Below, in pieces: positions 35,159 through 47,914 of a stretch of 64,000 bases of DNA. Location of the stretch: contig NZ_CP109446.1 of NCBI RefSeq assembly GCF_036227265.1, forward strand, positions 2,431,501 through 2,495,500, in the 5' to 3' direction. The notes under the pieces were generated by a model that was not told the DNA's origin, did not search any database, and saw only the letters and a program-made list of their open reading frames with translations. The DNA is from Streptomyces sp. NBC_01476. GTDB taxonomy: Bacteria; Actinomycetota; Actinomycetes; Streptomycetales; Streptomycetaceae. Position 1 is the stretch's first letter. Each line of letters starts with the position of its first letter. The position numbers were made by a program, and so were the translations under genes.

Positions 35159-36052
35159 ATGGGGTGGATCGAGACGGCGGACGGATACGCCGTCACGCTG
35201 GAGGGCGTGAAGGTGGTGTGCCGGAACGCCGCCGGACGGGCACTGAAGCAGGTGCCGGGGAAGCTGCGGGACGACCCCGAGGTGCTGCGGCTGCGGCAGC
35301 TCGCGGAGTGGTTGCAGCGGCACGAGCGGGAGTGTCTGGCGCAGGTGGACGGCTGGTTGGTGCGTTCGCTGCCGGTGCCCGCCGTCCTGCTGGCCGAGGT
35401 CTGGCCGGATGCCGCCTGGCAGCAGGTGCTCCGCGATCTGGTGGTCGCCCCGGTGGCCGCGGACGGCACCCCGGATCTGGCCAGGGCGGGATTCCTGCGG
35501 GACGCCGACCGCGAGCGGGGGCTCGGGGTGGTGGACCTCGACGGGGACTCGGTGCGGCTGGAAGCGGAATCGGTGCTGATCCCGCACCCGGTGCTGCTGG
35601 TGGAGCCGGCCGGGCTGGACGAACTCCGGGAGTTCGCGGCCGAGCTGGACGTACGCCAGAGCCTCGGGCAGCTCTTCCGCGAGGTGTGGCGGCGGGCCGA
35701 CGACGTGGATCCGGCGGCGTACGCGCTGACGGCGTACGCGGGCGGCCGGTTCGACCAGTTGCGGCACGCCACGGCCCGCGCGGTCCAGCACGGTTACCGG
35801 GTGCGCGGTGGCAACGCCACCTGCCAGGTGACCGAGGCCGGCCGGACGGTGGAGGCGTCCTTGTGGCTCGGCGCCGACTATCCGGAGGCCGAAGCGGTGA
35901 CCGGTGACCTGGAGTGGCGCGGGCCGGACGGCAACCGGCTGCGGCTCGGCGAGGTCGGCCCGGTGGCCTGGTCGGAGGGGGAACGGATGGCGTCGCTGCT
36001 GTACGCGGGGCGGGTCGTGGACAAGGACGAGGAAGAGGCGGGGGACCGGTGA
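35159..36052 (+). CDS. Stand-alone DUF4132-domain protein
   Basis: A 297-residue protein of unknown function. The middle resembles the DUF4132 domain: RDLVVAPVAADGTPDLARAG, DADRERGLGVVDLDGDSVRL, then VLIPHPVLLVEPAG, the domain's typical acidic stretch and HP motif. The N-terminus, GWIETADGYAVTLEGVKVVC, may mediate contacts. ATG 35159 has GGGGAGGGG upstream; an earlier in-frame ATG at 35108 lacks one. It overlaps the next gene by 4 bp (GTGA). DUF4132 appears in the E. coli YehI (MolR) protein, whose gene neighbours also encode MoxR, VWA and SWIM proteins. I infer it is the small subunit of the same system. Confidence 0.78.
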   Translation: MGWIETADGYAVTLEGVKVVCRNAAGRALKQVPGKLRDDPEVLRLRQLAEWLQRHERECLAQVDGWLVRSLPVPAVLLAEVWPDAAWQQVLRDLVVAPVAADGTPDLARAGFLRDADRERGLGVVDLDGDSVRLEAESVLIPHPVLLVEPAGLDELREFAAELDVRQSLGQLFREVWRRADDVDPAAYALTAYAGGRFDQLRHATARAVQHGYRVRGGNATCQVTEAGRTVEASLWLGADYPEAEAVTGDLEWRGPDGNRLRLGEVGPVAWSEGERMASLLYAGRVVDKDEEEAGDR

Positions 36053-39000
36053 ACGAGCGGGATCTGCTGGAAGCGGGGGCGGTGCTGCCGCTCGGCGGCG
36101 CACCGGAGGCGGCCGCCGGGGATGTGCTGGTGGCCCGGGGGTACCGGCACCCGGCACTGGACGACCGGGTCGTGGTGCGGCTGGTTCCGGAGGCGCTGGG
36201 CGAGGCGGAGGATCTCGCGCTGGAATTCCTCGGGTTCGGCGGGGAGCCCGCGGCGGCGGGTGACTCCGGGTCGGGCGACGGCTCTGGGGCAGGCAGTGAC
36301 TCAGGGTCGGGCGGTGACGCCACGGCAGGTGACTTCACGTCAGGCGCCGGCTCTGCGGCGGCGGCCGGTGGCTCCGGCGGGCGGGGCGTGCGGGTCGGGC
36401 GGGTGAAGCGGCAGGCGCTCGGCTTCCCGGCCTGGGCCCTGGTCCACGACCCGGCCAACGGCCGGCACGCGCTGGCCGTGGTCAAGGAGATGGAGCGGCT
36501 GGCCCGCATCGCGGTCACCAAGCCCGGCCACGCCAAGGACGGCTTCGAGGAACTGGCCACCCGGCTCGACCGTTCCGTACCGCACTTCCTGCCCACGTAC
36601 TACGAGGAGGTGGCCCGGCACTTCCTGGGCGCGGAGGCCACCACCTATGCGTCGGCGTTCTTCGGCAAGGCGCGCGACGCCGAGCGGCGGCACGCGCTGG
36701 CGGTGGACGAGGAGCGGCTGCGCGAGGTGTTCCTGGAGTTCGCCGCGGCCGGCGCGCTCAGCGGCAAGACGCTCCGGGAGCAGGCGAAGGGCCTGGCCGA
36801 ACGCCTCACCCCGCAGACGGCTCTTGAGGAGTTCCGGCTGCTCTGCGTGGAGCGCGGCGCGGCCGGTCTGAGCCCGTACGCGGGCCTGCTGGAGGATCTG
36901 CGGCGGCTGGCGAAGGCGGCCGGGCGCGACGCCGCCGCCGAGGAGGTGTCGCTGGTCTCGGAGCTGCTGAAGTCGTCGGCGGTGGCCCGCGCCGCGATGT
37001 CCTTCTGGAAGAGCGCCCGCGGCGCGCTGGTCACCGCGGCCCGGCAGGACCCGGCGGTCCGGGTCCGGCTGCTGCACCTGCTGCCGACCGCGGGCGGCGA
37101 GCACACGGCCGCGTTCGACGAGACGTGGCTGGAGATCCTGGAAGCCGCGGGCGCGTTCACGCTGCTCGCCCGGACGGGGGGAGGCGCGGGGGCGGCTGCC
37201 ACAGGGGAGCAGCCGCCCACCGCCGCCGCTTGGTTCGGCACCTGGGCGGCGCACCGGCAGCGCGGCTACTGGCGGCGGCAGGAGCGGATGCCCCGCGAGC
37301 TGGAGCTGGTCGAGCGGTTCGCCGCCCAACTGGCCGCGGAGCGGGAGCCGGTGCGGCTCGGCGGGGACCGCGGGCACACCGAGGTGGACCTGGACCTGCT
37401 GGACGCGTGCCTGGCACACGGCGTGCCGGTCACCGGCCCGGGCCGGGGCACCACGCTCAATCTGCGGAAATGGCTGGACGACGCGACGCCCGGCCGCCGT
37501 GATCTGGCCGCGGTGGTCGCCGATCCGCGGTTCGGTCCGCTGCTGCCGGCCGCGGTGGAGAAGGCGGCCGGTGGCCGCGGTGCCGCCGCGGCCCTGCACC
37601 GGCTGGCGTCGGGCCCGGTGCTCGGCCCGGTGGTCGGGCAGTGGCTCACCGACCGGGCGGCGGAGCTGGAACAGCCGCTCGGGCTCCCGGGCCTTGACCG
37701 GCTGCTGTCCCGGGTGAGCGGCTTCACCATCCCCTCGGCCCTGGCCGCCGCGCCCGTGGCCGCCGCCCGGATCGCGGCATTCGACGTGGCTCCGGTGCTC
37801 GCCCGCACCCTGCGGGCCGGCATCCTCGACGAACTGGGCTGGCCCGCCCTGGACCAAGCGCCGGCCCGGCTCCGCCCCGGCCGTACCAACCGCGACCACG
37901 GGTACCGGCTGGAGGACGCCTGGCCCGCGCTGATCGTCGCGGAGGACACCCGGGTGCTCGCGATCGGCCCGGAGGGCGTGCTGGACGACCGGACGCTGAC
38001 GCTGCCGGCGCCGAACCCGTACAGCTGGATGCCGCCGGTCTTCCGCTGGCTGGACGGTCAGTGGCTGGTCGCCTCCGGGCACGGCGACGCGCGGCGGGCC
38101 GTCTGGTCCGGCCGGCCCGCGGACACCTTCCGGCCCAAGGGCACGCTGGAAGCCCCGGCCCAGGGTTCCGGCACGGTGTCGGTGCCCCTGCCCGGCGGCG
38201 GCCGGTTCTACGGCACCCGGCCGATGCAGGTGGGCGACACCTCCTTCGGCGACCGCCGGCCGGTCGCCTCGGACGGCATCTCCTACTGGGTGCTGCACGA
38301 GGACCACTGGTACGAGTACGACCCGGCGACCGCCACCCGGGGCCGCGCCTCGGTGCCCGCCTTCTTCGACGGCGCACTCGCCGAAGGACCGCGGGGTGCC
38401 CGGCTGCTGCCGCCGTCCTGCCGGCTGCTGCCGGTCCGGCCCGGCCTTGAGGGCTCGCCGTTCGGCAGCAAGGACGGCCTGCTGGGCTGGTGGGTGCGGT
38501 ACGACCCGGCGGCCCGCACGATGACCGCCTGCTCGGTCGACGGCACCCACGGCCCGGACTGGCCCTGCGAGGAACTCCCGGACGGCACCCCGGTGATCAG
38601 CGGCGGCTCGCCGCTGCCGCCGCTGCGGCTGCCCGGCGGCGCGGCCCTGCACGCACGGGTTTCCGGCCACCGGACGGACTCGGTCTGGCTGTACGACGCC
38701 GAGGGCCTCGAACTCGCCCATGTGGAGGGCGGTGCGGCCGGCGGCCGGTACGCCAGGGGGACCGCGATCGTGCCGCCGGTCTGGTACTGGCACGCGCTGC
38801 GGGCGCGGGACGAGGCCGGCTCCGCGGTGCTCCGGACGGTCACCGACGCCCAGGCCGCCGCGCTGATCGCGGCGATGCCCGGCCCGCCCACGGAACCGGT
38901 CCGGGTCCCGACTCCCTTCCCGACCCCGCAGGAGGAGACCGCCGCCACGGCGGTACGGGCGTTGCTGCCTGGCATCAGCCACCCGGCCCTGGTCGAGGGC

Positions 39001-41190
39001 ATCGCCGCACTCGCCATGGAGGCCGCCCGGCTCACCCGCTGGGTCGCCGCCTTCGCCGGCAAGAAGGAGAAGGCCGCCGCGCCGGCGTCCGCGCAGGACG
39101 CCGCGCCCCGGGTGCGGCACGCGCACGACGGCGCGCTGAACCATGCGCTCAGGGGCCTGGCGAGCGGCGGCCGTTACGGCTACTACGGCAGCGACACCGA
39201 TCAGAGCACCGCCGCGATCGGGCAGGTCCTGGCCCTGCACCGGGCACTGAGCGGCGCCGCCGCGGTCCCCGCGGAAACCGCGGACGGGCACCCCCCGTTC
39301 ACGGCGATGCGGGGCACCAACGTCAACTGGCTGCCGCTGCTCGGCCACGGCTTCACCGCCGCGGCGGCGCGGGCCGCGGCGGCCGGTACCTCGGACCAGG
39401 ACCGGGCGGCGGTGCTGGAGTTCCTGCAGGCGGTGCTCGACGGCCCGGCCCCGTACGCCGATCCGCGCGGCCGGCTGCGGGTGGTGTCGCTCTGCGAGCC
39501 GGGCGACACCCGCGTGGAGCGGGCCGGCCAGGTGCTCCGGGCCGGTGACCGCACCCTGCTGCTCCTGACCTGCACCCACGTCCACGACAACGGGCGGCAC
39601 TGGCAGGGCGTCGAACACGACCCGGAGCAGGGGTTCGGGGCCTGGGAGGGCTTCGACCTCAAGGAGTCGACGGTCATCGGCGCCCCCGGCGACCCGGCGG
39701 GGACCGCCGCCCTGGCCCGGCTGATCACGCTCACCGCGGAGCGCGGCCCGGTGCCGTACCGGCACGGAGCGGCCGAGCGCTTCGCGGCCCTGACCGGGGT
39801 GGACGTGTCACTGGCGGCGCTGCTGCTGCTCGGCCTGCCCGAGATCACCGGCTACGGCAGGGACGGCATCCCGGGACCGGAGACGCTGGCCCTCGCGGGA
39901 CTGCGCCCCACCCGGGCGGTCACCGCCCGCGACGCCCTGCGACGGCTCAGCGGGGAACACCGCATCCGCCTGCTGGCCCGGCTGATGCCCGCCGACCCGG
40001 CGGCCGTCGAACGGCTGTGGGCCGACGGCTTCGACCCGGACGCCCTGGCCGACGAGTGGATCGCCATCCACGGCCGGCTGCGGCCGGTCCCGATCGAACT
40101 GCTGGAGCGCGCCGAGCGGGAGACGTCCATCGGCGAACAGCTGACCGCGGCCCTCAACCCCCGGTCGCGCCCCGAGCTGACCGGCCGCACCCGGCAGCGG
40201 CTCGACGCGAACCGGGCCCTGGTGGCCGACGACCCGGCCCAGCTGCTGTCGGGCCGGGAGCTGATGGGTTACGTCTCGGCGCTGCGCTGGCTCGCCTACC
40301 GGCTGCCGTACGGTGACCCGCTGCGGGCGGCGCTGCCCGAGACCCTGACGGCGCTGCGCTCCCGGCTGGCGGACGAGCAGCTGCTGCTCGACCTGTCGGT
40401 GGACTGGACCTCGGAGGGCAAACCGTCCTCGCACCGGGTCCGGGAGGCCTACGGGCTGCCGCGGACCGGTGGTCACGGGCCGGACGGCACCCTGCCGGCC
40501 GGGCCGGCGATCGTGCTGGTCCCGGCGCGCTACGGGCGCGAGCACGACGACGTGTGGGTGCGGCCGGCCGCGCTGCTGCCCGGGGCGTCCCCCGAAGGCG
40601 GCCCCGGCCACTCGGCGCTGACCCTGCTCACCGGCCTCAACCCCGGCCCGCTGCTGTGGGCACTGCGGGAGGTGCTCGGCGACGGCCTGGACGCACTGGT
40701 GGCGGCGGACGGCCCGGCGGGCGCCGCGCAGTACCCGGCGCACAGCGCGCCGGAGCTGGTCACGGCGGCGGCGCAGCGGCTCGGTCTGTCGCAGGACGCC
40801 GCCGCGCTCTACCTGATGCTGCTGGCGCTGCCCGACCCGACGGACCGCAATGTCACCGCCTGGACCGGCTGGAAGCCGGCCCGGAGCAAGCAGGCCCGGG
40901 CCGAACTGGCCGCCGGTGACCTGGTGGTGGAGGCCCGGCGGCCCCGGGCCGGCCGCACCCTGTTCCTGCCCGGCGGCTGGCTGGACCACAAGGCGCCGCA
41001 ACTGCCGCTGGAGACCTGGAAGACCGCGCTCTTCCGGTCCGCGCCGGGCGCGGACGACGGCTTCGTGGTGCCGGACTGCCCGGTGCCCGAGCTGTTCCGG
41101 CAGGCGTGGCAGCGGGTGGCCGACGGGGACGCGCCCGGTTTCGAGGAGTTCGCGGCCCGGCGGACCGGACCGCGAGGGGGACGGCGATGA
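36049..41190 (+). CDS. Giant 1713-residue protein of the MoxR-VWA cluster (YehI/MolR-like position)
   Basis: No confident domain can be assigned by reading. It is a large soluble protein with no signal or membrane segment. Residues about 63-114 are a Gly/Ser/Ala/Asp linker (GDSGSGDGSGAGSDSG). Residues about 115-500 are helical, with a VKRQALGFPAWALVHDPANG start. About 640-900 is beta-rich, with propeller-like spacing of WVLHEDHWYEYDP and RFYGTRPMQVG. About 1030-1100 holds GGRYGYYGSDTDQSTAAIGQ, and the C-terminal part is helical with a GWKPARSKQARAELAAGDL segment that could be a winged helix. The start is GTG 36049, coupled to the DUF4132 gene, and the stop is coupled to MoxR (ATGA). Probably the scaffold or client-binding unit of the complex. 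Confidence 0.75.
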   Translation: MNERDLLEAGAVLPLGGAPEAAAGDVLVARGYRHPALDDRVVVRLVPEALGEAEDLALEFLGFGGEPAAAGDSGSGDGSGAGSDSGSGGDATAGDFTSGAGSAAAAGGSGGRGVRVGRVKRQALGFPAWALVHDPANGRHALAVVKEMERLARIAVTKPGHAKDGFEELATRLDRSVPHFLPTYYEEVARHFLGAEATTYASAFFGKARDAERRHALAVDEERLREVFLEFAAAGALSGKTLREQAKGLAERLTPQTALEEFRLLCVERGAAGLSPYAGLLEDLRRLAKAAGRDAAAEEVSLVSELLKSSAVARAAMSFWKSARGALVTAARQDPAVRVRLLHLLPTAGGEHTAAFDETWLEILEAAGAFTLLARTGGGAGAAATGEQPPTAAAWFGTWAAHRQRGYWRRQERMPRELELVERFAAQLAAEREPVRLGGDRGHTEVDLDLLDACLAHGVPVTGPGRGTTLNLRKWLDDATPGRRDLAAVVADPRFGPLLPAAVEKAAGGRGAAAALHRLASGPVLGPVVGQWLTDRAAELEQPLGLPGLDRLLSRVSGFTIPSALAAAPVAAARIAAFDVAPVLARTLRAGILDELGWPALDQAPARLRPGRTNRDHGYRLEDAWPALIVAEDTRVLAIGPEGVLDDRTLTLPAPNPYSWMPPVFRWLDGQWLVASGHGDARRAVWSGRPADTFRPKGTLEAPAQGSGTVSVPLPGGGRFYGTRPMQVGDTSFGDRRPVASDGISYWVLHEDHWYEYDPATATRGRASVPAFFDGALAEGPRGARLLPPSCRLLPVRPGLEGSPFGSKDGLLGWWVRYDPAARTMTACSVDGTHGPDWPCEELPDGTPVISGGSPLPPLRLPGGAALHARVSGHRTDSVWLYDAEGLELAHVEGGAAGGRYARGTAIVPPVWYWHALRARDEAGSAVLRTVTDAQAAALIAAMPGPPTEPVRVPTPFPTPQEETAATAVRALLPGISHPALVEGIAALAMEAARLTRWVAAFAGKKEKAAAPASAQDAAPRVRHAHDGALNHALRGLASGGRYGYYGSDTDQSTAAIGQVLALHRALSGAAAVPAETADGHPPFTAMRGTNVNWLPLLGHGFTAAAARAAAAGTSDQDRAAVLEFLQAVLDGPAPYADPRGRLRVVSLCEPGDTRVERAGQVLRAGDRTLLLLTCTHVHDNGRHWQGVEHDPEQGFGAWEGFDLKESTVIGAPGDPAGTAALARLITLTAERGPVPYRHGAAERFAALTGVDVSLAALLLLGLPEITGYGRDGIPGPETLALAGLRPTRAVTARDALRRLSGEHRIRLLARLMPADPAAVERLWADGFDPDALADEWIAIHGRLRPVPIELLERAERETSIGEQLTAALNPRSRPELTGRTRQRLDANRALVADDPAQLLSGRELMGYVSALRWLAYRLPYGDPLRAALPETLTALRSRLADEQLLLDLSVDWTSEGKPSSHRVREAYGLPRTGGHGPDGTLPAGPAIVLVPARYGREHDDVWVRPAALLPGASPEGGPGHSALTLLTGLNPGPLLWALREVLGDGLDALVAADGPAGAAQYPAHSAPELVTAAAQRLGLSQDAAALYLMLLALPDPTDRNVTAWTGWKPARSKQARAELAAGDLVVEARRPRAGRTLFLPGGWLDHKAPQLPLETWKTALFRSAPGADDGFVVPDCPVPELFRQAWQRVADGDAPGFEEFAARRTGPRGGRR

Positions 41191-42338
41191 GCGGCGCGGA
41201 CGGAAGCGGCGCCCGGCAGATCGAGCCGGCCGAGGACCGGTACGCCGCGGAGCTGGCCTTCCTGGCCGGCTATGAAGACGGGCCCCGGCCGCCGGGCTGG
41301 CGGCTGACCCCGCGGGCCGTGGTGACCTTCGTCTGCGGGTCGGGCGGCGAACCGCTGCTGCGCGCCTCGGACGGTGCCCGGCTCACCGTGGCACGCAAGT
41401 TCGTCGGCGACCGGGCGGTGGTGGAGCGGTGCGTGGTGACCCTCGCCGGGGAGCGCGGGCTGCTGCTGGTGGGCGAGCCGGGCACCGCCAAGTCGATGCT
41501 GTCGGAGCTGCTGGCAGCCGCGGTCTGCGGCACCAGCGGGCTCACCGTGCAGGGCACCGCGGGCACCACCGAGGACCAGCTGCGGTACGGCTGGAACTAC
41601 GCGATGCTGCTCGCCGCCGGCCCCAGCAGCGCGGCGCTGGTGCCGTCCCCGGTGCTCACCGCCATGACCCGCGGCGCGGTGGCCCGGATCGAGGAGGTCA
41701 CCCGCTGCCTGCCGGAGGTGCAGGACGCGCTGGTGTCGATCCTCTCCGAGCGGCGGATGGCGGTGCCGGAGCTGGCCGGCACCGCGGAGGCGGACGGCGG
41801 GACCGTGCACGCGGTGCCCGGCTTCACCGTCATCGCCACCGCCAACCTCCGCGACCGCGGGGTCTCGGAGATGTCCGCGGCCCTCAAACGCCGCTTCAAC
41901 TTCGAGACGGTCGGCCCGATCACCGACCTGGACGCGGAGACCGAACTGGTACGCGGGCAGGCGGTGACCGCGCTGGCCCGCTCGGGAGCGCGGTTCACCG
42001 TCGACCGGGCGGTGCTCGAAGCACTGGTCACCGCCTTCCGGGACCTGCGGACCGGACGCAGCGCCGAGGGGTGGGACGTCGAGCGGCCTTCGACGGTGAT
42101 GAGCACGGCGGAAGCGGTGCACGTCGCCACCTCGATGGGGCTGGCCGCCGCGTATCTGCCCGACGGCCGGGACGCCCTGCGCACCCTGCCGGGGCACCTG
42201 CTGGGGACGGTCCGCAAGGACGACCCGGCGGACCACCCGAGGCTGCTGGCCTATTGGGACGGGCCGGTCCGCCGCCGGGCCGAGCAGGGCGCGCCACTGT
42301 GGCGCACGCTGTGGGAGCTGCGCGATGCGCTCGGCTGA
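41187..42338 (+). CDS. MoxR-family AAA+ ATPase
   Basis: An ATP-driven remodelling factor of 383 residues. It has Walker A GEPGTAKS (Lys 102), Walker B AVARIEEVTR, sensor 1 VIATANLRDRG, and the arginine-finger region MSAALKRRFNFETVG, all typical of MoxR proteins. MoxR ATPases usually act with a VWA partner, encoded next. It overlaps the giant gene by 4 bp (ATGA) and the next gene by 14 bp, so all four are translated as one coupled block. It corresponds in position and family to E. coli YehL. Hexamer formation and a chaperone or maturation role are family-based inferences. Confidence 0.92.
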   Translation: MSGADGSGARQIEPAEDRYAAELAFLAGYEDGPRPPGWRLTPRAVVTFVCGSGGEPLLRASDGARLTVARKFVGDRAVVERCVVTLAGERGLLLVGEPGTAKSMLSELLAAAVCGTSGLTVQGTAGTTEDQLRYGWNYAMLLAAGPSSAALVPSPVLTAMTRGAVARIEEVTRCLPEVQDALVSILSERRMAVPELAGTAEADGGTVHAVPGFTVIATANLRDRGVSEMSAALKRRFNFETVGPITDLDAETELVRGQAVTALARSGARFTVDRAVLEALVTAFRDLRTGRSAEGWDVERPSTVMSTAEAVHVATSMGLAAAYLPDGRDALRTLPGHLLGTVRKDDPADHPRLLAYWDGPVRRRAEQGAPLWRTLWELRDALG

Positions 42339-45300
42339 CGGGCCCGGTGCGCTGGAGGCGGGTGCACCGGAGGGGGGTGCACCCGCCGACGCCGCGGAGG
42401 CGCTGGCGGGGTGCCGTGCGCCGTATCTGATCGGGGTGCGGCACCACTCCCCCGCGCTGGCCGCCGCGGTGCCGCAGCTGCTGGCCGCGGCGGCACCCGA
42501 GGTGCTCTTCGTGGAGCTGCCGGGGGAGTTCGCGCGGTGGCTGCCGTATCTGGCCGACCCGGCGACCGTTCAGCCGGTCGCGCTGGCCGGGCACGGGCCG
42601 CGCGGGCTGGTGTTCCTGCCGTTCGCCGACTTCTCGCCGGAGCTGGTGGCGATCCGCTGGGCCGCGGAGGCGGGGGTGCCGGTGGTGCCGTTCGACCTGC
42701 CGCTGGGCGCCCGGGGGGACGGCCGGGCAGGCCAGGGGGAGGCGGACGGCGGGCAGCAAGAGCAAGGAGAGCAAGGGCAGCAAGGAGGACAAGGGGCGCA
42801 AGGGGCGTGGCCCGAGCGGGCGTTGGAGCGGGCACTGCGGGAGCGGGCCGGGGGGCGCGCCGAGGACGACCTGTGGAACCGGCTGGTGGAGGCCGCGGCA
42901 CCGGGCGGTACGGCGGAGGCCCTGCGCCGGGCGGCGCTGCTGCTGGGGTGGGCGCTGCGCCAGGACGCGGCGCGCGGCGGCCGGCTCGACCCGTACGACC
43001 TGCGGCGCGAGGCCCACATGCGGCGGCTGCTGGCCGCCAGGCCCGGGGTCAGGGCGGCAGCGGTGGTGGGGGCGTTCCACGGCCCGGCGCTGGTGCCGGG
43101 CGCGGGCGGCACGGAGCCGGACGATCCTGCCGGGCCGGATGACGTCGCGGAGGTGGCCACCTCCCTGGTGCCGTACACCTACCCGCTGCTGGACGAGCGG
43201 TCCGGCTATCCGGCGGGCATCCGCGACCCGGAGTGGCAGTTGGGCGTGGTGCGGGCGGCGGGTGACCCGGAGCGGCTGGACGCGCTGCTGCTGGGGACCG
43301 CGGTGCGGATCTGCGCCGCGGTCCGGGCCGCGGGTCACCCGTGCGGGCCGCCCGACGCCCGTGAGGTGGTCCGGCATGCCCGGGACCTGGCCTCGCTGCG
43401 CGGGCTGCCCGCAGCCGGGCGCGGTGAGCTGCTGGAGGCCGTGCGGACGGTGCTGACGCAAGGCCAGTTGCTCGGGCGGGGCCGGGTGGTGGCGCGGGCG
43501 CTGGAGGAGGTACTGGTCGGCACCCGGCACGGCAGGCCCGCTCCCGGCACCCCGCGGTCAGGGCTCGGACCGGCCGTGGAGAGCCTGCTGGCCGAGCTGG
43601 GTCTGCCGGCGCCCGGGGCACCGGAACGGCGGGAGCTGCGGCTTGACCCGTACCGTTCGCCGCTGGACCGCCGCCGGGAGCTGGCACTGCGGCAGCTCGT
43701 GGTCTGCGGGGTGCCGTACGGCGAACCGGCGCCCACCGCGGGGACCGGCGGCACCGCCGGCATCGGCACCCGCTGGACGGTGGAGTGGACGCCCGCCACC
43801 GCGGCGATGCTGGAGGCGACCGCTGTGCACGGCTCCGAACTCCCCTTCGCCGCCGAGGGGTTGCTGCGGCAGCGGGCCCGCAACGAGCGGCGGGACGGCG
43901 GCCCGGCGGCGGCGGAGGTGCTGACCGGGCTGACCGACGCGGCCTCCTGCGGCCTGCCGGGACCGGCCGCGGACCGGCTCGCGGAGACGGCCCGGCTGCT
44001 GCCGGTCACCGGGACGCTCCCGGAGCTGCTGGCCGGGCTTGGCCTGCTGGACCGGCTGGCCTCGGGGCACTTTCCCGGTCTTGACGCCGGGTGGGAGGCC
44101 GCAGCGGTGACGGCGGCCCGGGCCGAGGTGACCGCTGCCGGGGTGCGGGCACTGGACGGTCTGGCGGGGTCGGACGACCCGGCGGACGCGCTGGCGCTGG
44201 CGGAGCTGGCCGCCCGGGGGCTGCCCGGGCTGCGGATGGCGGACGCGCTGACCCGGCTGGCGGCCGAAGGCACACCACTGATCCGGGGCGCGGCCGGTGC
44301 GGCCCTGGTGCTGCTGGGCGAGACCGCGCCGGGCGCCTTCGGCACGGTGCTGGCCGCCAGGACCGAGGACGCCACCACCGCGGAACTGCGGGAGGGGCTG
44401 GCCGGTTTCCTCACCGGGGCGCTGACCGCGGCGGGGCCGCTGGTGGAGGCGGAGGCCCTGCTGGCGCCGCTGGTGGAGACGGTGGAGGCGCTGCGGGACC
44501 GGGGGTTCCTGACCCGGTTGCCCGCCCTGCGGCGGGGGTTCGACGCCTTGACGCCGGCGGCGCGGGAGCGGCTGCTGGCGACGGTAAGGGACGGTGCGGC
44601 CTTCGGGCCGGCCGCGCCCGCTGGGCTGGACCCGGCGGCGGCTGCCCGGCACACCGGGGCGGACCTGGCGGGGCGCGAGGCGCTGGCGGCACTGGGGTTG
44701 CTGGGCGTGCTGGACGGTGACCTTCCGGCCGCCGCGGTGGATACGCCGCAGGGCCGCCAGGAAGGGTCCATGGACGACGTGATCACCGCGGATGTGCGGT
44801 GGCAACTGCTGCTGGGCCGGGTGAAACAGCGGTCGGCGGCGCGGATGGCGGCCGCGCTGGACGAGTTGTACGGGGCAGGACGCGGGGAGGGTGCGGAGGA
44901 GATGGGGAGGTCAGGGGCGGGCAGCGAGGCGCCGTACCCCGATGTCCGCAGCTGGGCCGAGGAGCTTCAGGCGCTCTTCGGGGCCGGTGTCCGGGAGGAG
45001 GTGCTGGCGGCGGCTGCCGCGGCCGGGCGGCTCGACGCGGCCCTGGAGATGGACCCGGCGGCGGCCCGGCCCTCGGTGGAACTCCTGCGGACCGTGCTGT
45101 CGTTCGCCGGCGGGCTGCCCGAGGGCCAACTGGCCAGGCTCCGGCCGCTGGTGGCGAGGCTGGTGCGGGAGCTGACGCAGGCGCTGGCCAACCGGATGCG
45201 GCCGGCGCTGGTGGGGCTGACCCATCCGCGCCCGACGCGGCGGCCGGGCGGCCCGCTGGATCTGCCCCGCACCCTGCGGGCGAACCTCGCGACGGCCCGC

Positions 45301-45885
45301 CGCGACCCGGTGGACGGGACCGTCACCGTGCTGCCGGAGCGGCCTGTCTTCCGGACGCGGGCGCGCAAGGCGGCGGACTGGCGGATCGTCCTGGTGGTGG
45401 ACGTCTCGGGGTCCATGGAGGCGTCCACGATCTGGTCGGCGGTCACCGCGGCGGTGCTCTCCGGGGTGCCGGCGCTGAGCACCCACTTCGTGGCCTTCTC
45501 CACCGAGGTGGTGGACCTGACCGGGCAGGTGGACGACCCGCTGAGCCTGCTGCTGGAGGTGCGGGTGGGCGGCGGTACGAACATCGCCCGCGGGCTGCGC
45601 CACGCACGGGGGCTGGTGACGGTGCCGTCGCGGACGCTGGTGGTGCTGGTCAGCGACTTCGAGGAGGGCGGGCCGGTCGGGGCGCTGCTCGGGGAGGTAC
45701 GGGCGCTGGTGGAGTCCGGGTGCCATGTCCTGGGGTGCGCGTCGCTCGACGACGCCGGCCGGGGGCGGTACTCGGTGGGCGTCGCGGGCCAGTTGGTGGC
45801 CGCGGGGATGCCGGTGGCGGCGCTGAGCCCGCTGGAGCTGGCGCGGTGGGTGGGCGAACGGGTCTCCGGTGGCGGGTCCCGGTGA
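42325..45885 (+). CDS. DUF5682-VWA fusion protein
   Basis: An 1186-residue protein joining two families that are separate genes elsewhere (E. coli YehM- and YehP-like). The N-terminal DUF5682 part (1 to about 760) begins YLIGVRHHSPALA (His 40-41) and LFVELPGEFARWL (Glu 64), a pattern recalling the TIKI/ChaN/EreA hydrolase fold. The C-terminal part carries a von Willebrand A domain with a full MIDAS: DVSGSM at Asp 1026, Thr 1085 in GGGTNIARG, and Asp 1111 in VSDFEEGG. A Gln/Gly-rich insert lies at about 144-161. An internal GGAAGG plus ATG at 44770 could also yield the VWA half alone. It overlaps MoxR by 14 bp. Confidence 0.88.
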   Translation: MRSADGPGALEAGAPEGGAPADAAEALAGCRAPYLIGVRHHSPALAAAVPQLLAAAAPEVLFVELPGEFARWLPYLADPATVQPVALAGHGPRGLVFLPFADFSPELVAIRWAAEAGVPVVPFDLPLGARGDGRAGQGEADGGQQEQGEQGQQGGQGAQGAWPERALERALRERAGGRAEDDLWNRLVEAAAPGGTAEALRRAALLLGWALRQDAARGGRLDPYDLRREAHMRRLLAARPGVRAAAVVGAFHGPALVPGAGGTEPDDPAGPDDVAEVATSLVPYTYPLLDERSGYPAGIRDPEWQLGVVRAAGDPERLDALLLGTAVRICAAVRAAGHPCGPPDAREVVRHARDLASLRGLPAAGRGELLEAVRTVLTQGQLLGRGRVVARALEEVLVGTRHGRPAPGTPRSGLGPAVESLLAELGLPAPGAPERRELRLDPYRSPLDRRRELALRQLVVCGVPYGEPAPTAGTGGTAGIGTRWTVEWTPATAAMLEATAVHGSELPFAAEGLLRQRARNERRDGGPAAAEVLTGLTDAASCGLPGPAADRLAETARLLPVTGTLPELLAGLGLLDRLASGHFPGLDAGWEAAAVTAARAEVTAAGVRALDGLAGSDDPADALALAELAARGLPGLRMADALTRLAAEGTPLIRGAAGAALVLLGETAPGAFGTVLAARTEDATTAELREGLAGFLTGALTAAGPLVEAEALLAPLVETVEALRDRGFLTRLPALRRGFDALTPAARERLLATVRDGAAFGPAAPAGLDPAAAARHTGADLAGREALAALGLLGVLDGDLPAAAVDTPQGRQEGSMDDVITADVRWQLLLGRVKQRSAARMAAALDELYGAGRGEGAEEMGRSGAGSEAPYPDVRSWAEELQALFGAGVREEVLAAAAAAGRLDAALEMDPAAARPSVELLRTVLSFAGGLPEGQLARLRPLVARLVRELTQALANRMRPALVGLTHPRPTRRPGGPLDLPRTLRANLATARRDPVDGTVTVLPERPVFRTRARKAADWRIVLVVDVSGSMEASTIWSAVTAAVLSGVPALSTHFVAFSTEVVDLTGQVDDPLSLLLEVRVGGGTNIARGLRHARGLVTVPSRTLVVLVSDFEEGGPVGALLGEVRALVESGCHVLGCASLDDAGRGRYSVGVAGQLVAAGMPVAALSPLELARWVGERVSGGGSR
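42754..42806 (+). repeat. CAA/GGN microsatellite inside the DUF5682 coding region
   Basis: A purine-rich run of CAAGG-type units (about 9-bp period) encodes QQEQGEQGQQGGQGAQG in frame. CAA and AAG-containing codons are rare in this genome, so the tract looks like a recently expanded in-frame repeat or linker. It separates the first DUF5682 segment from the rest. Confidence 0.7.
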
Positions 45886-46153
45886 ACTCTGCCGCCCGCC
45901 GGGAAGCGCCCGTCGGGAAGTGCCCGTCGCTCCCGGGTGGGTGCGGCTTCCCGGGGTGTTCCGGCCCGTACGTGCGGGTTCGCCGGCGGCCCGTCCCCGT
46001 GGCGGTCGTGCGGAGCCGCCACCGGCCGTGGGGGGATGCCGGCGGTCGTGGGAGCCACGGACGGCCGTGGGGGCCGCCGTCCGGGCAGCCACTCCTGTTG
46101 GTGCGGGTGCGGCCTGGTGAAGGGCAACGGCGGTGCCGGAGAGGGGACATGAC

Positions 46154-47914
46154 GTGGTGAACGGGTTGCCGCCGGTGACGGCCGGAGCCGCCGGGGAGGC
46201 GGCCGAGTTGCTGCCGGGACGGTTGCGGAAGCGGTTGGACGGGGCCGTGGGGAAGGCCGGCGGGTGGGTGGTGCGGGCGGGGGACGGCGAGGTCGTGGTC
46301 GCGGTGGACGCCGAGACCACCGTGACGCTCACCTTGTCGCCCGCCGGGACGGTGGCCACCGCCGGCGCGGTGCGCTGCGACTGCCTGCTCGCGCCCGCGT
46401 GCCTGCACCGCGCCGCCGTGCTGGCCGCGGCGCCGCTCGCCGACGAAGAGGAAGAGGAAGAAGGGGACGGTCCCGGGGAAGAGGGCTCGGATGCCAGGAG
46501 CAAGGCCGCGGGCGAGACCGGCGAACGGCCGGCGGACCCGGACCCGGACTCCCCCGCCGGCGGCCCGGCCTCCGACGCGATGCGGGAGGCCGCGGCAGCC
46601 CTGTGGACCGCGGGGGTCACCGCGCTGTGCGCCGGGGCGAACGCCTCCGCTCTCCCCCGGACGGCGTTGCTGCACGCCGCCCACAGCGCCCGGCTGGCGC
46701 GTCTGCACCGGCCCGCCGCGAGTGCCACACGGGTGGCGCGGCGCCTCGGTGAGGCGCGGGCCGCCGACAGCGCCTTCCGGCTCGGCGAACTCGTCGCGGA
46801 CCTGGCCGCCCTGCTGGCGGAGGCACGGGCGGTGGCCGCCGGGGACGCGGCCCTGGCCGGTGCGGCCCGGCGGACGTATCAGCCGGCGGGGCCGCTGCGG
46901 CTCTACGGCCTGTTCACCGAGCCGGTGGTCACCGCGTCCGGGTACGGCGGGGCGGTCACGCATCTGGCGACCGCCGAGGGCGAGGTGCGGACCGTCGGGG
47001 TGGTCGCGCCCGGCGGGGTGGAGCGGGTGGACGCCTCGGCGGGGGCCGGGGTGCCCGGTGGCGCGGCGCTGACCCTGCGGCAGTTGGGGCGCGGCGGGGG
47101 GCTGATCGCCACCGGGGCGACCGTGACGGAGGACGGGCGGATCGGCGGCGGGGCGGGCCTGCGGACGGTGGGCGCGGGCGGGGCGGGCTGGTTCGAGCCG
47201 CCGCTGGACGCGCTGTGGCGGCGCCCCGCCGCCGCCCAGGTGGCCGCCGCGGTGGCACGGCCGGAGGGGGACGGTCTGCTGTTCCTGTCGGGTACGGTCA
47301 CACGGCTGGACGGCCTGCCCGCCCTCGCGCTCGCCGGCGGCGGACCCGTGGTCGTACTCCACGCGCCAGACGCGCGCCCGGAGTTGGCGTACACCGCGAA
47401 TCTGCGGCGGCTGGCGGGGCTCTCGGGGGCGGCGGTACGGCTGATCGGCCGGCTCGCGCCGGACCGGCCGCGGGGCGTGGTGGCCCTGGCGCTCGGCACA
47501 CCGGACCGGACGGTGGACCTCGGGCTCGACCAGCTCCCCGCGGCCCTCGCGACGGCAGCGGCCGGTCCTGCCGCCCCGCCGTCCGGCTCCCCGCTGCCGC
47601 TGCCGCTGCCGCTGCCTCCCGTGGAGTGGGACCTGCTGAGCCGTACGGTGGCGCGTACCGTCGCGGGCGGCCGGGCGGTGGCGGCGGTGGCCGCCGATCC
47701 GGCGCTGCCGGGCCGGCTGCGTGCCGCCGGGCTGCCCACCGCCGCCGCCTGCGCCGCCGCACTGAGCGCCGCGGCCCGGGCCCGCCGCCCCGACGCGCTG
47801 GGCGCGATGCTCCCGGCCGACCCGGACGCCTTCGCCACCGCGTGGCTGGCCGCGGCCGTCTACCTCTCGGCCGCGGCCCGGGACTTCACGACGGCTGCCT
47901 GGGCCGGCGGCTGA
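46154..47914 (+). CDS. SWIM zinc-finger protein of the MoxR-VWA cluster
   Basis: A 586-residue protein with an N-terminal SWIM motif, CxC-x5-CxH, at Cys75, Cys77, Cys83, His85 (CDCLLAPACLH), a zinc finger thought to bind DNA or protein. A highly acidic linker (ADEEEEEEGDGPGEEG) follows, then a large helical and beta-rich region with no recognisable enzyme motif. The start is one of two adjacent GTG codons (46154 or 46157) after AGGGGA. The gene lies about 270 bp downstream of the VWA fusion and is not overlapping, but on the same strand. E. coli YehQ, also SWIM, occupies a comparable place, supporting common function. Confidence 0.82.
   Translation: MVNGLPPVTAGAAGEAAELLPGRLRKRLDGAVGKAGGWVVRAGDGEVVVAVDAETTVTLTLSPAGTVATAGAVRCDCLLAPACLHRAAVLAAAPLADEEEEEEGDGPGEEGSDARSKAAGETGERPADPDPDSPAGGPASDAMREAAAALWTAGVTALCAGANASALPRTALLHAAHSARLARLHRPAASATRVARRLGEARAADSAFRLGELVADLAALLAEARAVAAGDAALAGAARRTYQPAGPLRLYGLFTEPVVTASGYGGAVTHLATAEGEVRTVGVVAPGGVERVDASAGAGVPGGAALTLRQLGRGGGLIATGATVTEDGRIGGGAGLRTVGAGGAGWFEPPLDALWRRPAAAQVAAAVARPEGDGLLFLSGTVTRLDGLPALALAGGGPVVVLHAPDARPELAYTANLRRLAGLSGAAVRLIGRLAPDRPRGVVALALGTPDRTVDLGLDQLPAALATAAAGPAAPPSGSPLPLPLPLPPVEWDLLSRTVARTVAGGRAVAAVAADPALPGRLRAAGLPTAAACAAALSAAARARRPDALGAMLPADPDAFATAWLAAAVYLSAAARDFTTAAWAGG

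Follow-up and report, generated by a model that had tools for sequence, protein, structure and literature searches.

The five adjacent genes on the forward strand at positions 35159-47914 of the window, the whole 64,000-nucleotide stretch of Streptomyces DNA analysed here, are identified by sequence comparison as a YehL-type MoxR-VWA system in its actinobacterial form. The assignment is based on the order of the genes, which is the same as in Escherichia coli, and on the MoxR ATPase, which matches YehL and not RavA. Judged from the same comparisons, the layout is new in three respects: the DUF4132 protein (A) is a module standing alone, the equivalents of YehM and YehP are fused (D), and a giant protein without detectable kinship to YehI (B) has been added. 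Gene content, gene order, the conserved motifs, the kinship to YehL and YehP, and the fusions of A to B in relatives are direct observations. With a probability of roughly 0.4, the locus encodes a YehL-type MoxR-VWA machine in which D would provide a Tiki-like output, A and B would form a recognition unit, and the SWIM-type protein E would do the steering. The candidate active site in DUF5682 and the defined A-B pair make this orphan operon testable. Since DUF5682 and VWA share one chain, and A and B are fused in relatives, the one-chain form and the fusions also show which parts of the machine probably touch.

Organization of the locus

The locus begins with A, a DUF4132 protein of 297 residues (35159-36052), which is followed by the 1713-residue giant protein B (36049-41190), the 383-residue MoxR AAA+ ATPase C of the YehL kind (41187-42338), the 1186-residue DUF5682-VWA fusion D, equivalent to YehM plus YehP (42325-45885), and the SWIM-type protein E, with 593 residues from the first GTG (46133-47914). 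The reading frames agree with the earlier note on this DNA, which had described five families with end-to-end overlaps of A/B by GTGA, B/C by ATGA and C/D by 14 bp, and a SWIM gene next to them. The Walker and sensor motifs of MoxR, the full MIDAS, the CxC-x5-CxH motif, and the RHH and VELP motifs that it listed have all been located in the proteins. Pfam profile searches, which it had proposed for all five proteins, matched A, C, and D, but returned nothing for B and E up to E = 1.

Start codons were surveyed in 25 of 26 related loci, one having been skipped. An available start codon of B overlaps the stop codon of A by 4 bp in 25/25 loci. A start within -20 to +5 of the upstream stop is present for C in 17/25 loci, for D in 24/25, and for E, whose start codon is not well defined, in 1/25. 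The first GTG of E is 247 bp downstream of D, and the actual initiation codon may be a few codons further on. Third codon positions are the most changed in 20/20 gene comparisons. A tRNA-Pro predicted by ARAGORN at 43263-43353 lies inside D and was taken as a false positive.

MoxR ATPase and SWIM-type protein

C matches Pfam AAA_5 (2.5e-38) and carries the Walker A motif GEPGTAKS at residue 96, ARIEEVTR at 166, and IATAN at 216; Walker A and sensor 1 are identical in 27/27 MoxR proteins. The comparison with MoxR subfamilies covered YehL, RavA, and the NCBIfam GvpN and MadB models. That MoxR and VWA are of the YehL/YehP kind is supported: C is 46.6% identical to YehL, with a score of 289 bits vs 27 bits for RavA, and is far below the cut-off of the GvpN and MadB models. 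In a 70-row MoxR tree, which leaves out locus L064 because of a length and stop filter, four clades correspond to four gene layouts, and C groups with the full-length-DUF4132 layout that includes YehL (split support 99/94). MoxR subfamilies are delimited by their sequences together with the arrangement of the surrounding genes, according to a published classification (PMC3893208). The local set of DUF4132, DUF5682, VWA, and SWIM genes is present beside C, as it is beside YehL; that these neighbours define the YehL subfamily is our own reading of E. coli.

The zinc-binding motif of E, CDCLLAPACLH (CxC-x5-CxH), spans residues 82-92 (46376-46408). It is present in 27/27 B-type proteins, and its four motif positions are invariant also in YehQ and in the host's other SWIM protein, from the second DUF5682 locus L003. 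These two proteins match the Pfam SWIM model, whereas E does not. The earlier description is refined in two ways: A is the terminal module only, and E is not matched by Pfam SWIM.

DUF5682-VWA protein

D matches Pfam DUF5682 (1.1e-170) and VWA_CoxE (1e-64), the latter being its best-matching VWA family, and both parts share a single reading frame in all 26 loci that were fetched. The VWA_CoxE domain (45184-45852) has a complete MIDAS formed by DxSxS at residue 1026, T at 1085, and D at 1111. The structure model of D has a pLDDT of 79.9 and a pTM of 0.59. Its VWA part matches many VWA domains, including those of NorD and Rea1/MDN1.

The N-terminal residues 28-330 (42406-43314) form a candidate Tiki/TraB/ChaN-like domain with GxRHH (GVRHH at residue 37), E64 (in VELP at 63), SPE106, RE228-229, and GxxH252. 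H40, H41, E64, E106, R228, E229, and H252 are invariant in the DUF5682 alignments. Proteins of the Tiki superfamily have motifs in the order GxxH-E-(R)-GxxH, and in 45 DUF5682 members G37-H40, E64, and G249-H252 are invariant, which provides two GxxH motifs and a glutamate in the fixed order of that superfamily. In the model of D, both histidine motifs and E64 are positioned at or just past the ends of strands. The two commonest non-self Pfam families among the 45 members are TraB (7/45) and ChaN (4/45), the next family having 2, with all matches below threshold. The best Tiki-type match has an E-value of 0.019, and single members score better with the unrelated TrAA12 (4.7e-4) and CBM46 (0.0049). 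The resemblance to the Tiki superfamily (TraB/PrgY/GumN, ChaN) is one of like motif order and sub-threshold Pfam matches; unlike Tiki proteins, D has a second histidine right behind the first (RHH), a large helical extension, and a VWA domain behind it, and the match is not significant. Comparison of D with YbaP alone by hhalign, as a test of TraB, yielded P = 0.042 over 26 columns. ChaN was found in 0/119 and TraB in 1/119 Actinomycetota genomes. PDB sequence searches with D and DUF5682 N-terminal alignments produced nothing of use. Among the matches listed for the fold search with D, almost every one is a VWA domain or a long helical repeat; there is no Tiki structure among them, but since the VWA part fills the rows and the Tiki part was barely probed, this absence is not evidence against a Tiki fold. 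A Tiki-like fold of the DUF5682 N-terminus is supported but not proven. The invariant GxRHH-E-RE-GxxH motifs, together with the sub-threshold matches to TraB and ChaN, suggest that DUF5682 may be a metal-dependent hydrolase. EreA was considered as the nearest Tiki branch and rejected, hhalign being negative; the EreA profile was a rough one, built from nine stop-to-stop frames of 13 loci, one of them perhaps in the wrong frame.

DUF4132 protein and giant protein

A covers the whole Pfam DUF4132 model (5.7e-27). The model is located at residues 954-1138 of the 1210-residue YehI and at 920-1101 of a 1189-residue protein from locus L060. The alignment by hhalign of A with seven YehI-like proteins matched the same C-terminal end, weakly (P 7.6e-4, probability 25%). 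By these comparisons, A is only the C-terminal DUF4132 module of YehI-like proteins of about 1200 residues. A chain of about 1000-1200 residues combining a long region with DUF4132 is absent from the locus, and WGR has no match in A or B.

B belongs to no known family, and a PDB sequence search with its alignment produced nothing of use. The possibility that B is a diverged YehI was rejected, as the 27-row alignment of giants has no hhalign match to YehI alone or to the set of seven YehI-like proteins that includes it. The structure prediction proposed earlier for the 1713-residue protein was obtained for residues 620-1713 with a pLDDT of 81.1, but yielded only weak matches to propellers: the top Foldseek rows are mainly propellers, with a best E-value of 7.2e-3, and VIA-align Z-scores are 4.8 or lower. 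Residues 620-913 (37906-38787), mostly strands in the model, are beta-propeller-like. Residues 1582-1639 (40792-40965) have a helix-helix-helix-strand-strand order according to DSSP on the model and look winged-helix-like by eye; their conservation of 0.83-0.89 is the highest of the C-terminal half. Four plasmid homologues of B are annotated as "DNA-binding protein".

A and B are encoded in one frame in three distant relatives (L201, L202, L207). These fusions point to the A-B pair as a separate module. The association of B with the motor is not universal, since MoxR and D are missing from the sequence read around 10/14 giant relatives that were fetched. The earlier reading missed the Tiki-like metal-site motifs, the A-B module, and the lack of a detectable relationship of the giant to YehI.

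Comparison with known systems

The E. coli cluster yehF-yehI-yehL-yehM-yehP-yehQ likewise encodes DUF4132, MoxR, DUF5682, VWA, and SWIM proteins in the same order; the earlier note had named the same families for yehI, yehL, yehM, yehP, and yehQ. D is 42.3% identical to YehP and 25% to YehM, with a profile match to YehM of 99.7% probability. By contrast to the single chain of D, YehM and YehP are separate; a 297-residue module and a 1713-residue giant take the place of the 1210-residue YehI; and the WGR protein YehF is present in E. coli, with no WGR match in A or B. To our knowledge, YehI, YehM, YehP, and YehQ have no established function, and the E. coli K-12 record names them only by domain or as uncharacterized.

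Actinobacterial loci with full-length DUF4132 (L060-L062, L064, L065) have DUF4132 upstream of MoxR, as here, and the MoxR proteins of four of them are the sister group of C in the tree. They differ in having between one and three long DUF4132 genes in tandem (WGR is present in the one that was checked) and a separate VWA protein; A, B, and E have no match in these loci. The host's second DUF5682 system, L003 (SWIM / MoxR / DUF5682 / VWA), has the same four core families, but lacks DUF4132 or a giant beside it, has SWIM on the opposite strand and a separate VWA, and its MoxR belongs to another clade. NorQ-NorD, CoxD-CoxE, and RavA-ViaA also combine a MoxR ATPase with a VWA partner containing a VWA_CoxE domain; unlike this locus, they have known partners or clients. 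The similarity to RavA/ViaA is marginal and far weaker than that to YehL/YehP. The literature searched contained no use of the term DUF5682, and neither DUF4132 nor "SWIM domain" together with MoxR.

Conservation, distribution, and alternative functions

The order and strand of A-B-C-D-E are the same in 26/26 fetched relatives and in 59/59 further loci with enough flank among 80 fetched; 21 loci without enough flank were left out of the count, and the two sets overlap by at least four loci. The same six segments, to which the count is confined, are found in every locus of both sets. The fetched DUF5682 loci leave out at least six further mid-score matches (for example, G024:C126, G010:C224, G073:C161, and G057:C1). 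That the five adjacent, mostly overlapping genes are one unit, as the earlier note had described them, is supported by these counts. B and E are the fastest-diverging proteins: identities to the window's proteins are 37-68% for B, 35-67% for E, and 72-91% for MoxR. At least 147/297 family genomes contain the giant or one of its relatives, in many places and sometimes on plasmids. When grouped by nucleotide similarity, 85 upstream flanks, some of them duplicates, make up 40 clusters.

The patchy spread over many places, the plasmid copies, one of which is beside an IS110 gene, and the fast divergence of B and E would suit an anti-phage or abortive conflict system, in which A, B, and E would sense the invader and MoxR-VWA would release D as a Tiki-like effector. 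Pairing of MoxR-vWA with a third component is typical of conflict systems, according to PMC7159879; its ternary systems (VMAP, iSTAND, FtsH, beta-propeller) combine MoxR and vWA with a large third component, some with propellers. However, that paper names effector displacement as typical of such systems, whereas no effector change was seen among the six segments of the loci counted here, and the words yeh, SWIM, DUF4132, and MolR are absent from its main text. The bpMoxR Pfam model scores 22.1 bits with C, below the cut-off of 27. In the phage collection B is unmatched, and D matches one record by its VWA part only. The best PADLOC match of the locus (library of 2023) is 0.0045, to an unrelated restriction model. 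Clustering near defence genes, raised in the earlier note, was not found: the scan, performed without a control set, covered 140/287 flank clusters and matched 23 PADLOC families at 1e-5, and by our own judgement one of the 140 is a clear defence gene, encoding a defence-type reverse transcriptase. The other matches look like housekeeping relatives, and the scanned flank proteins look ordinary. A conflict function is unlikely; of the stress response or biological conflict considered earlier, it is the conflict part that is weakened by the ordinary flanks and the fixed six segments.

A dedicated maturase, in which MoxR-VWA would insert metal into or remodel one client enzyme in the manner of NorQ-NorD or CoxD-CoxE and the Tiki-like domain would be a ChaN-like carrier of metal or haem, is rather improbable. 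It would agree with VWA_CoxE as the best VWA family, with the NorQD entries among the fold matches, and with ChaN, one of the two Tiki matches, being a haem-binding family; furthermore, molR was named for molybdate use, as the title of a 1990 paper cited in part of PMC4245954 indicates. Nevertheless, no neighbour accompanies the locus consistently, even the largest cluster of flanks covering 12/83 loci, PMC8533742 reports no differential expression of moeA and moeB, and the nucleic-acid-type parts would be left without explanation. That the genes are neighbours without joint function, kept by chance or block transfer, is already disfavoured and highly improbable. In its favour, the five proteins have correlated distances (Spearman 0.60-0.92), as could result from common descent alone; against it, the order, shared with E. 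coli, is kept across several actinobacterial families while the flanks change, overlaps are common, and A-B fusions exist.

Proposed mechanism

In the favoured reading of the locus as a YehL-type MoxR-VWA machine, the VWA part of D would be the docking site of the MoxR ring, which would spend ATP on remodelling either D itself or a client bound via the MIDAS site. The N-terminal Tiki-like metal site of D would provide the output; it would most likely be a metal-dependent hydrolase, which MoxR may switch on or load with metal. The NorQ-NorD and Rea1-MIDAS entries among the many VWA matches of D support such an ATP machine by analogy. A and B, fused in distant relatives, would act as one recognition unit, and the propeller-like and winged-helix-like parts of B, together with E, may direct the complex towards a target that is bound to nucleic acid or generated by stress. 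The nucleic-acid side appears to be supported by the SWIM motif, the winged-helix-like end of B, the position of one A-B fusion next to Hen1-Pnkp, and that of one distant giant next to an HSDR_N protein. The earlier proposal of MoxR acting on a VWA-held target, with the giant as a scaffold and the SWIM protein as a nucleic-acid or target binder, is plausible.

A role in stress or with nucleic acids would be likelier than one in phage defence. The Deinococcus radiodurans proteins DRA0166 (DUF4132) and DR2173 (WGR) increase upon exposure to mitomycin C, and the increase depends on IrrE, as described in PMC8533742. DRA0166 ties in only by its DUF4132 family.

A bolder and doubtful extension is that DUF5682 proteins, including YehM, would be Tiki-fold metallohydrolases gated by MoxR-VWA, and that the DUF4132-giant pair would be a portable sensor of nucleic-acid damage, plugged onto the motor here and onto RNA-repair (Hen1-Pnkp) or nuclease genes elsewhere. 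If true, this would be a class of ATP-gated hydrolase machines not described before. One A-B fusion (G273) adjoins Hen1-Pnkp, the sole such adjacency among the matches listed, and Pnkp is present in at least 272/297 genomes. One distant giant adjoins an HSDR_N protein.

Organization and conservation of the operon

Five genes on the forward strand, recognized from reading frames and Pfam matches, form an operon at positions 35159–47914 of the window. They encode a 297-residue DUF4132 protein (A), a giant protein of 1713 residues without a Pfam match (B), a MoxR ATPase (C), and a single fused DUF5682-VWA protein (D), with A, C, and D assigned by Pfam, and a protein identified by its SWIM-type CxC-x5-CxH motif (E). 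The end-to-end overlap of four genes with a SWIM gene behind them, as described in the earlier note, is confirmed: A and B, and likewise B and C, overlap by 4 bp, C and D by 14 bp, and E begins 247 bp after D. The genome around the window is a single contig of 8.4 Mb. In 25 of 25 loci examined, the frame of B has an available start codon that overlaps A by 4 bp, and third codon positions are the most variable in all 20 gene comparisons. A tRNA-Pro call at 43263–43353, inside gene D, is regarded as a false positive.

The five genes constitute one unit. DUF5682 is present in 72 of the 100 relatives searched, with scores that fall into groups. From the group of the window (approximately 390–720 bits), 26 places were sampled by score and not by neighbors, leaving out at least six others; in all 26, A-B-C-D-E have identical order on one strand, and the DUF5682 and VWA parts of D share a single frame. 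When 84,980 named species were scanned for the giant protein, 445 of 522 candidates proved to be relatives. In the best 80 of the 445, which by name all belong to Streptomyces, Kitasatospora, Embleya or Actinacidiphila, all six segments of the operon are in order in each of the 59 loci with enough flank. The two sets have at least four loci in common. The order is also kept, within the stretch read, at L204, L205, L206, and L213, four loci that represent three further families in the class. Distances of the five proteins correlate with Spearman coefficients of 0.60–0.92, calculated among operon proteins only. One compared locus (L056:6528–9437) contains a second, partial giant, matching residues 6–985, between B and C.

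Relationship to the yeh genes of Escherichia coli

The A–E layout is a new form of a known, little-characterized kind of system. The gene order in E. coli K-12 is yehF (WGR), yehH (pseudogene), yehI (DUF4132), yehK, yehL (MoxR), yehM (DUF5682), yehP (VWA), and yehQ (SWIM); the earlier assignment of the yeh genes to the same families holds, and the DUF4132, MoxR, DUF5682, VWA, and SWIM families follow the same order. Protein C and YehL share 46.6% identity across 373 residues (289 bits, as opposed to 27 bits for RavA), and the VWA part of D scores 172 bits to YehP versus 23 bits to ViaA. YehM is matched at the profile level with 99.7% probability. Sequence and profile comparisons gave no direct match of YehI or YehQ to A, B, or E; A is linked to YehI by the common Pfam domain DUF4132, and E to YehQ by the SWIM-type motif. 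Seven subfamilies of MoxR proteins, YehL among them, are distinguished in a published account (PMC3893208). Judged by sequence, the system of the window is of the YehL kind.

In a MoxR tree of 70 rows, four clades correspond to four gene layouts: a core of SWIM/MoxR/DUF5682/VWA, also found in the host at L003; VWA-MoxR-DUF5682; a layout with long DUF4132 proteins, the clade of which contains YehL; and the A–E layout of the window. The clade of the window is sister to the long-DUF4132 clade with support of 99/94, and YehL lies on a long branch. Unlike YehI-like proteins, in which the DUF4132 module is the C-terminal end, A consists of that module alone, and the counterparts of YehM and YehP are joined in the single chain of D. 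The giant occupies the site of the one or more long DUF4132 genes of related loci; however, profile comparisons found no similarity between it and the long DUF4132 proteins. Neither the A–E layout, nor DUF4132 with MoxR, DUF5682, or a SWIM domain with MoxR, was found described in a literature search that had most subscription journals outside its reach, and the absence of a description of the layout is unproven.

The L003 stretch also carries a UvrD/PcrA helicase and an ATP-grasp CoA-ligase gene. Loci L066–L073 from several Streptomycetaceae have a third layout of VWA, MoxR, and, in most of these loci, a recognizable DUF5682, with MoxR forming a separate clade. At L061 and L065, and at G065:C17 as judged from the match list alone, three or four successive DUF4132 matches lie beside MoxR-DUF5682-VWA. 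At least five records labeled E. coli (one of 4.9 Mb) among the matches listed from a plasmid collection match DUF5682, and two are annotated yehM. According to a report on E. coli ST131 (PMC9334617), a large subbranch carries a resistance transposon within the metG/DUF4132/yeh region; therefore, the region tolerates disruption there.

A candidate metal site in DUF5682

Residues G37, R39, H40, H41, P43, E64, P66, S104-P105-E106, R228-E229, G249, and H252 in the first 300 residues are invariant in 45 DUF5682 sequences, including YehM. In the predicted structure of D, with block pLDDT values of 89–97 around these motifs, the first motif closes strand 34–38, E64 closes strand 60–66, and the second GxxH follows strand 244–249. 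Two GxxH motifs and a glutamate are taken as the signature of the Tiki superfamily, which comprises TraB/PrgY/GumN and ChaN. When the 45 members were scanned singly against Pfam, these were the two commonest families other than DUF5682 (TraB/PrgY/GumN in seven members, best E-value 0.019; ChaN in four, best 0.02), the next occurring in two members and fifteen others in one each. Two single-member families, TrAA12 (4.7e-4) and CBM46 (0.0049), score better. Three matches listed with ranges lie at the C-terminal end of the TraB and ChaN profiles (174–202 of 213 and 216–245 of 263), presumably the place of the second GxxH. Because no TraB or ChaN match among the 45 members is above the Pfam cut-off, the resemblance of the DUF5682 N-terminus to the Tiki superfamily is a hint and no proof. 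Comparison of EreA with DUF5682 gave no match.

Distribution and possible function

The best-supported reading is that the MoxR motor would act through the VWA domain on the Tiki-like metal site, and that A-B and E would aim this machine. The operon could alternatively be a biological-conflict system, as its patchy occurrence, its mobility, and the rapid change of B and E suggest. Of 297 family genomes, 147 contain the giant or a protein related to its N-terminal part, as do 38 of 394 genomes drawn from the class. Upstream flanks of 85 loci form 40 clusters, the largest of 14 and, in the clade of the window, of nine, with duplicates counted and a nucleotide criterion that could split distant relatives at the same place. 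Within that clade the place is largely common: 6 to 10 loci have an HD phosphohydrolase together with CbiX at one end of the operon and a DUF218 gene at the opposite end. Most of the giant is present in five Streptomyces plasmid records; one of them, a 0.9-Mb linear plasmid of S. atratus (L159), carries the entire operon beside an IS110 transposase gene, its SWIM protein being annotated only as hypothetical. No neighbor is constant among 440 flank frames of 83 loci, which form 287 clusters with the largest in 12 loci. Against the conflict reading, the 140 scanned flank proteins included one clear defense gene by judgement, the others being ordinary. Moreover, a published account (PMC7159879) describes effector displacement as typical for conflict systems, and no effector change was seen in the conserved frame. 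The conflict reading is therefore weakened.

A role of the MoxR-driven machine in damage or stress may be favored by the reported mitomycin C induction of DRA0166 (DUF4132) and DR2173 (WGR) in Deinococcus radiodurans (PMC8533742). The slow-growth interaction of E. coli molR1 with lepA, listed in another study (PMC4245954), fits several readings.

The A-B pair outside the complete operon

The middle of B is propeller-like according to its predicted structure and a weak fold-search match, and the model of its C-terminal end resembles a winged helix. Four plasmid-borne relatives of B are annotated as DNA-binding proteins. A and B occur without MoxR on plasmid SNP1 (L160) and, with A in pieces, on an Embleya plasmid (L161). 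The host genome contains a second A-B pair at approximately 6.982–6.987 Mb (L178). The 19 kb read there include neither MoxR nor D nor E; this second B stops early, with its C-terminal part broken into pieces. Among 14 giant relatives of a further set, four belong to complete systems and ten are without MoxR or D, in each case within the stretch read. In three of these ten (L201, L202, and L207), A and B form one open frame. Neighbors of the ten include a glycoside hydrolase, pyrimidine phosphorylases, and an ABC protein, which point to no function. The A-B fusion at L202:8311–15810 directly follows Hen1 and Pnkp, the bacterial RNA-repair pair. It is a single case, with no second adjacency of A-B or the giant to Hen1-Pnkp among the matches listed; Pnkp itself is present in 272 of 297 family genomes. 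Ahead of the distant giant at L208:5664–11583 lies a protein that carries an HSDR_N domain, as in type I restriction.
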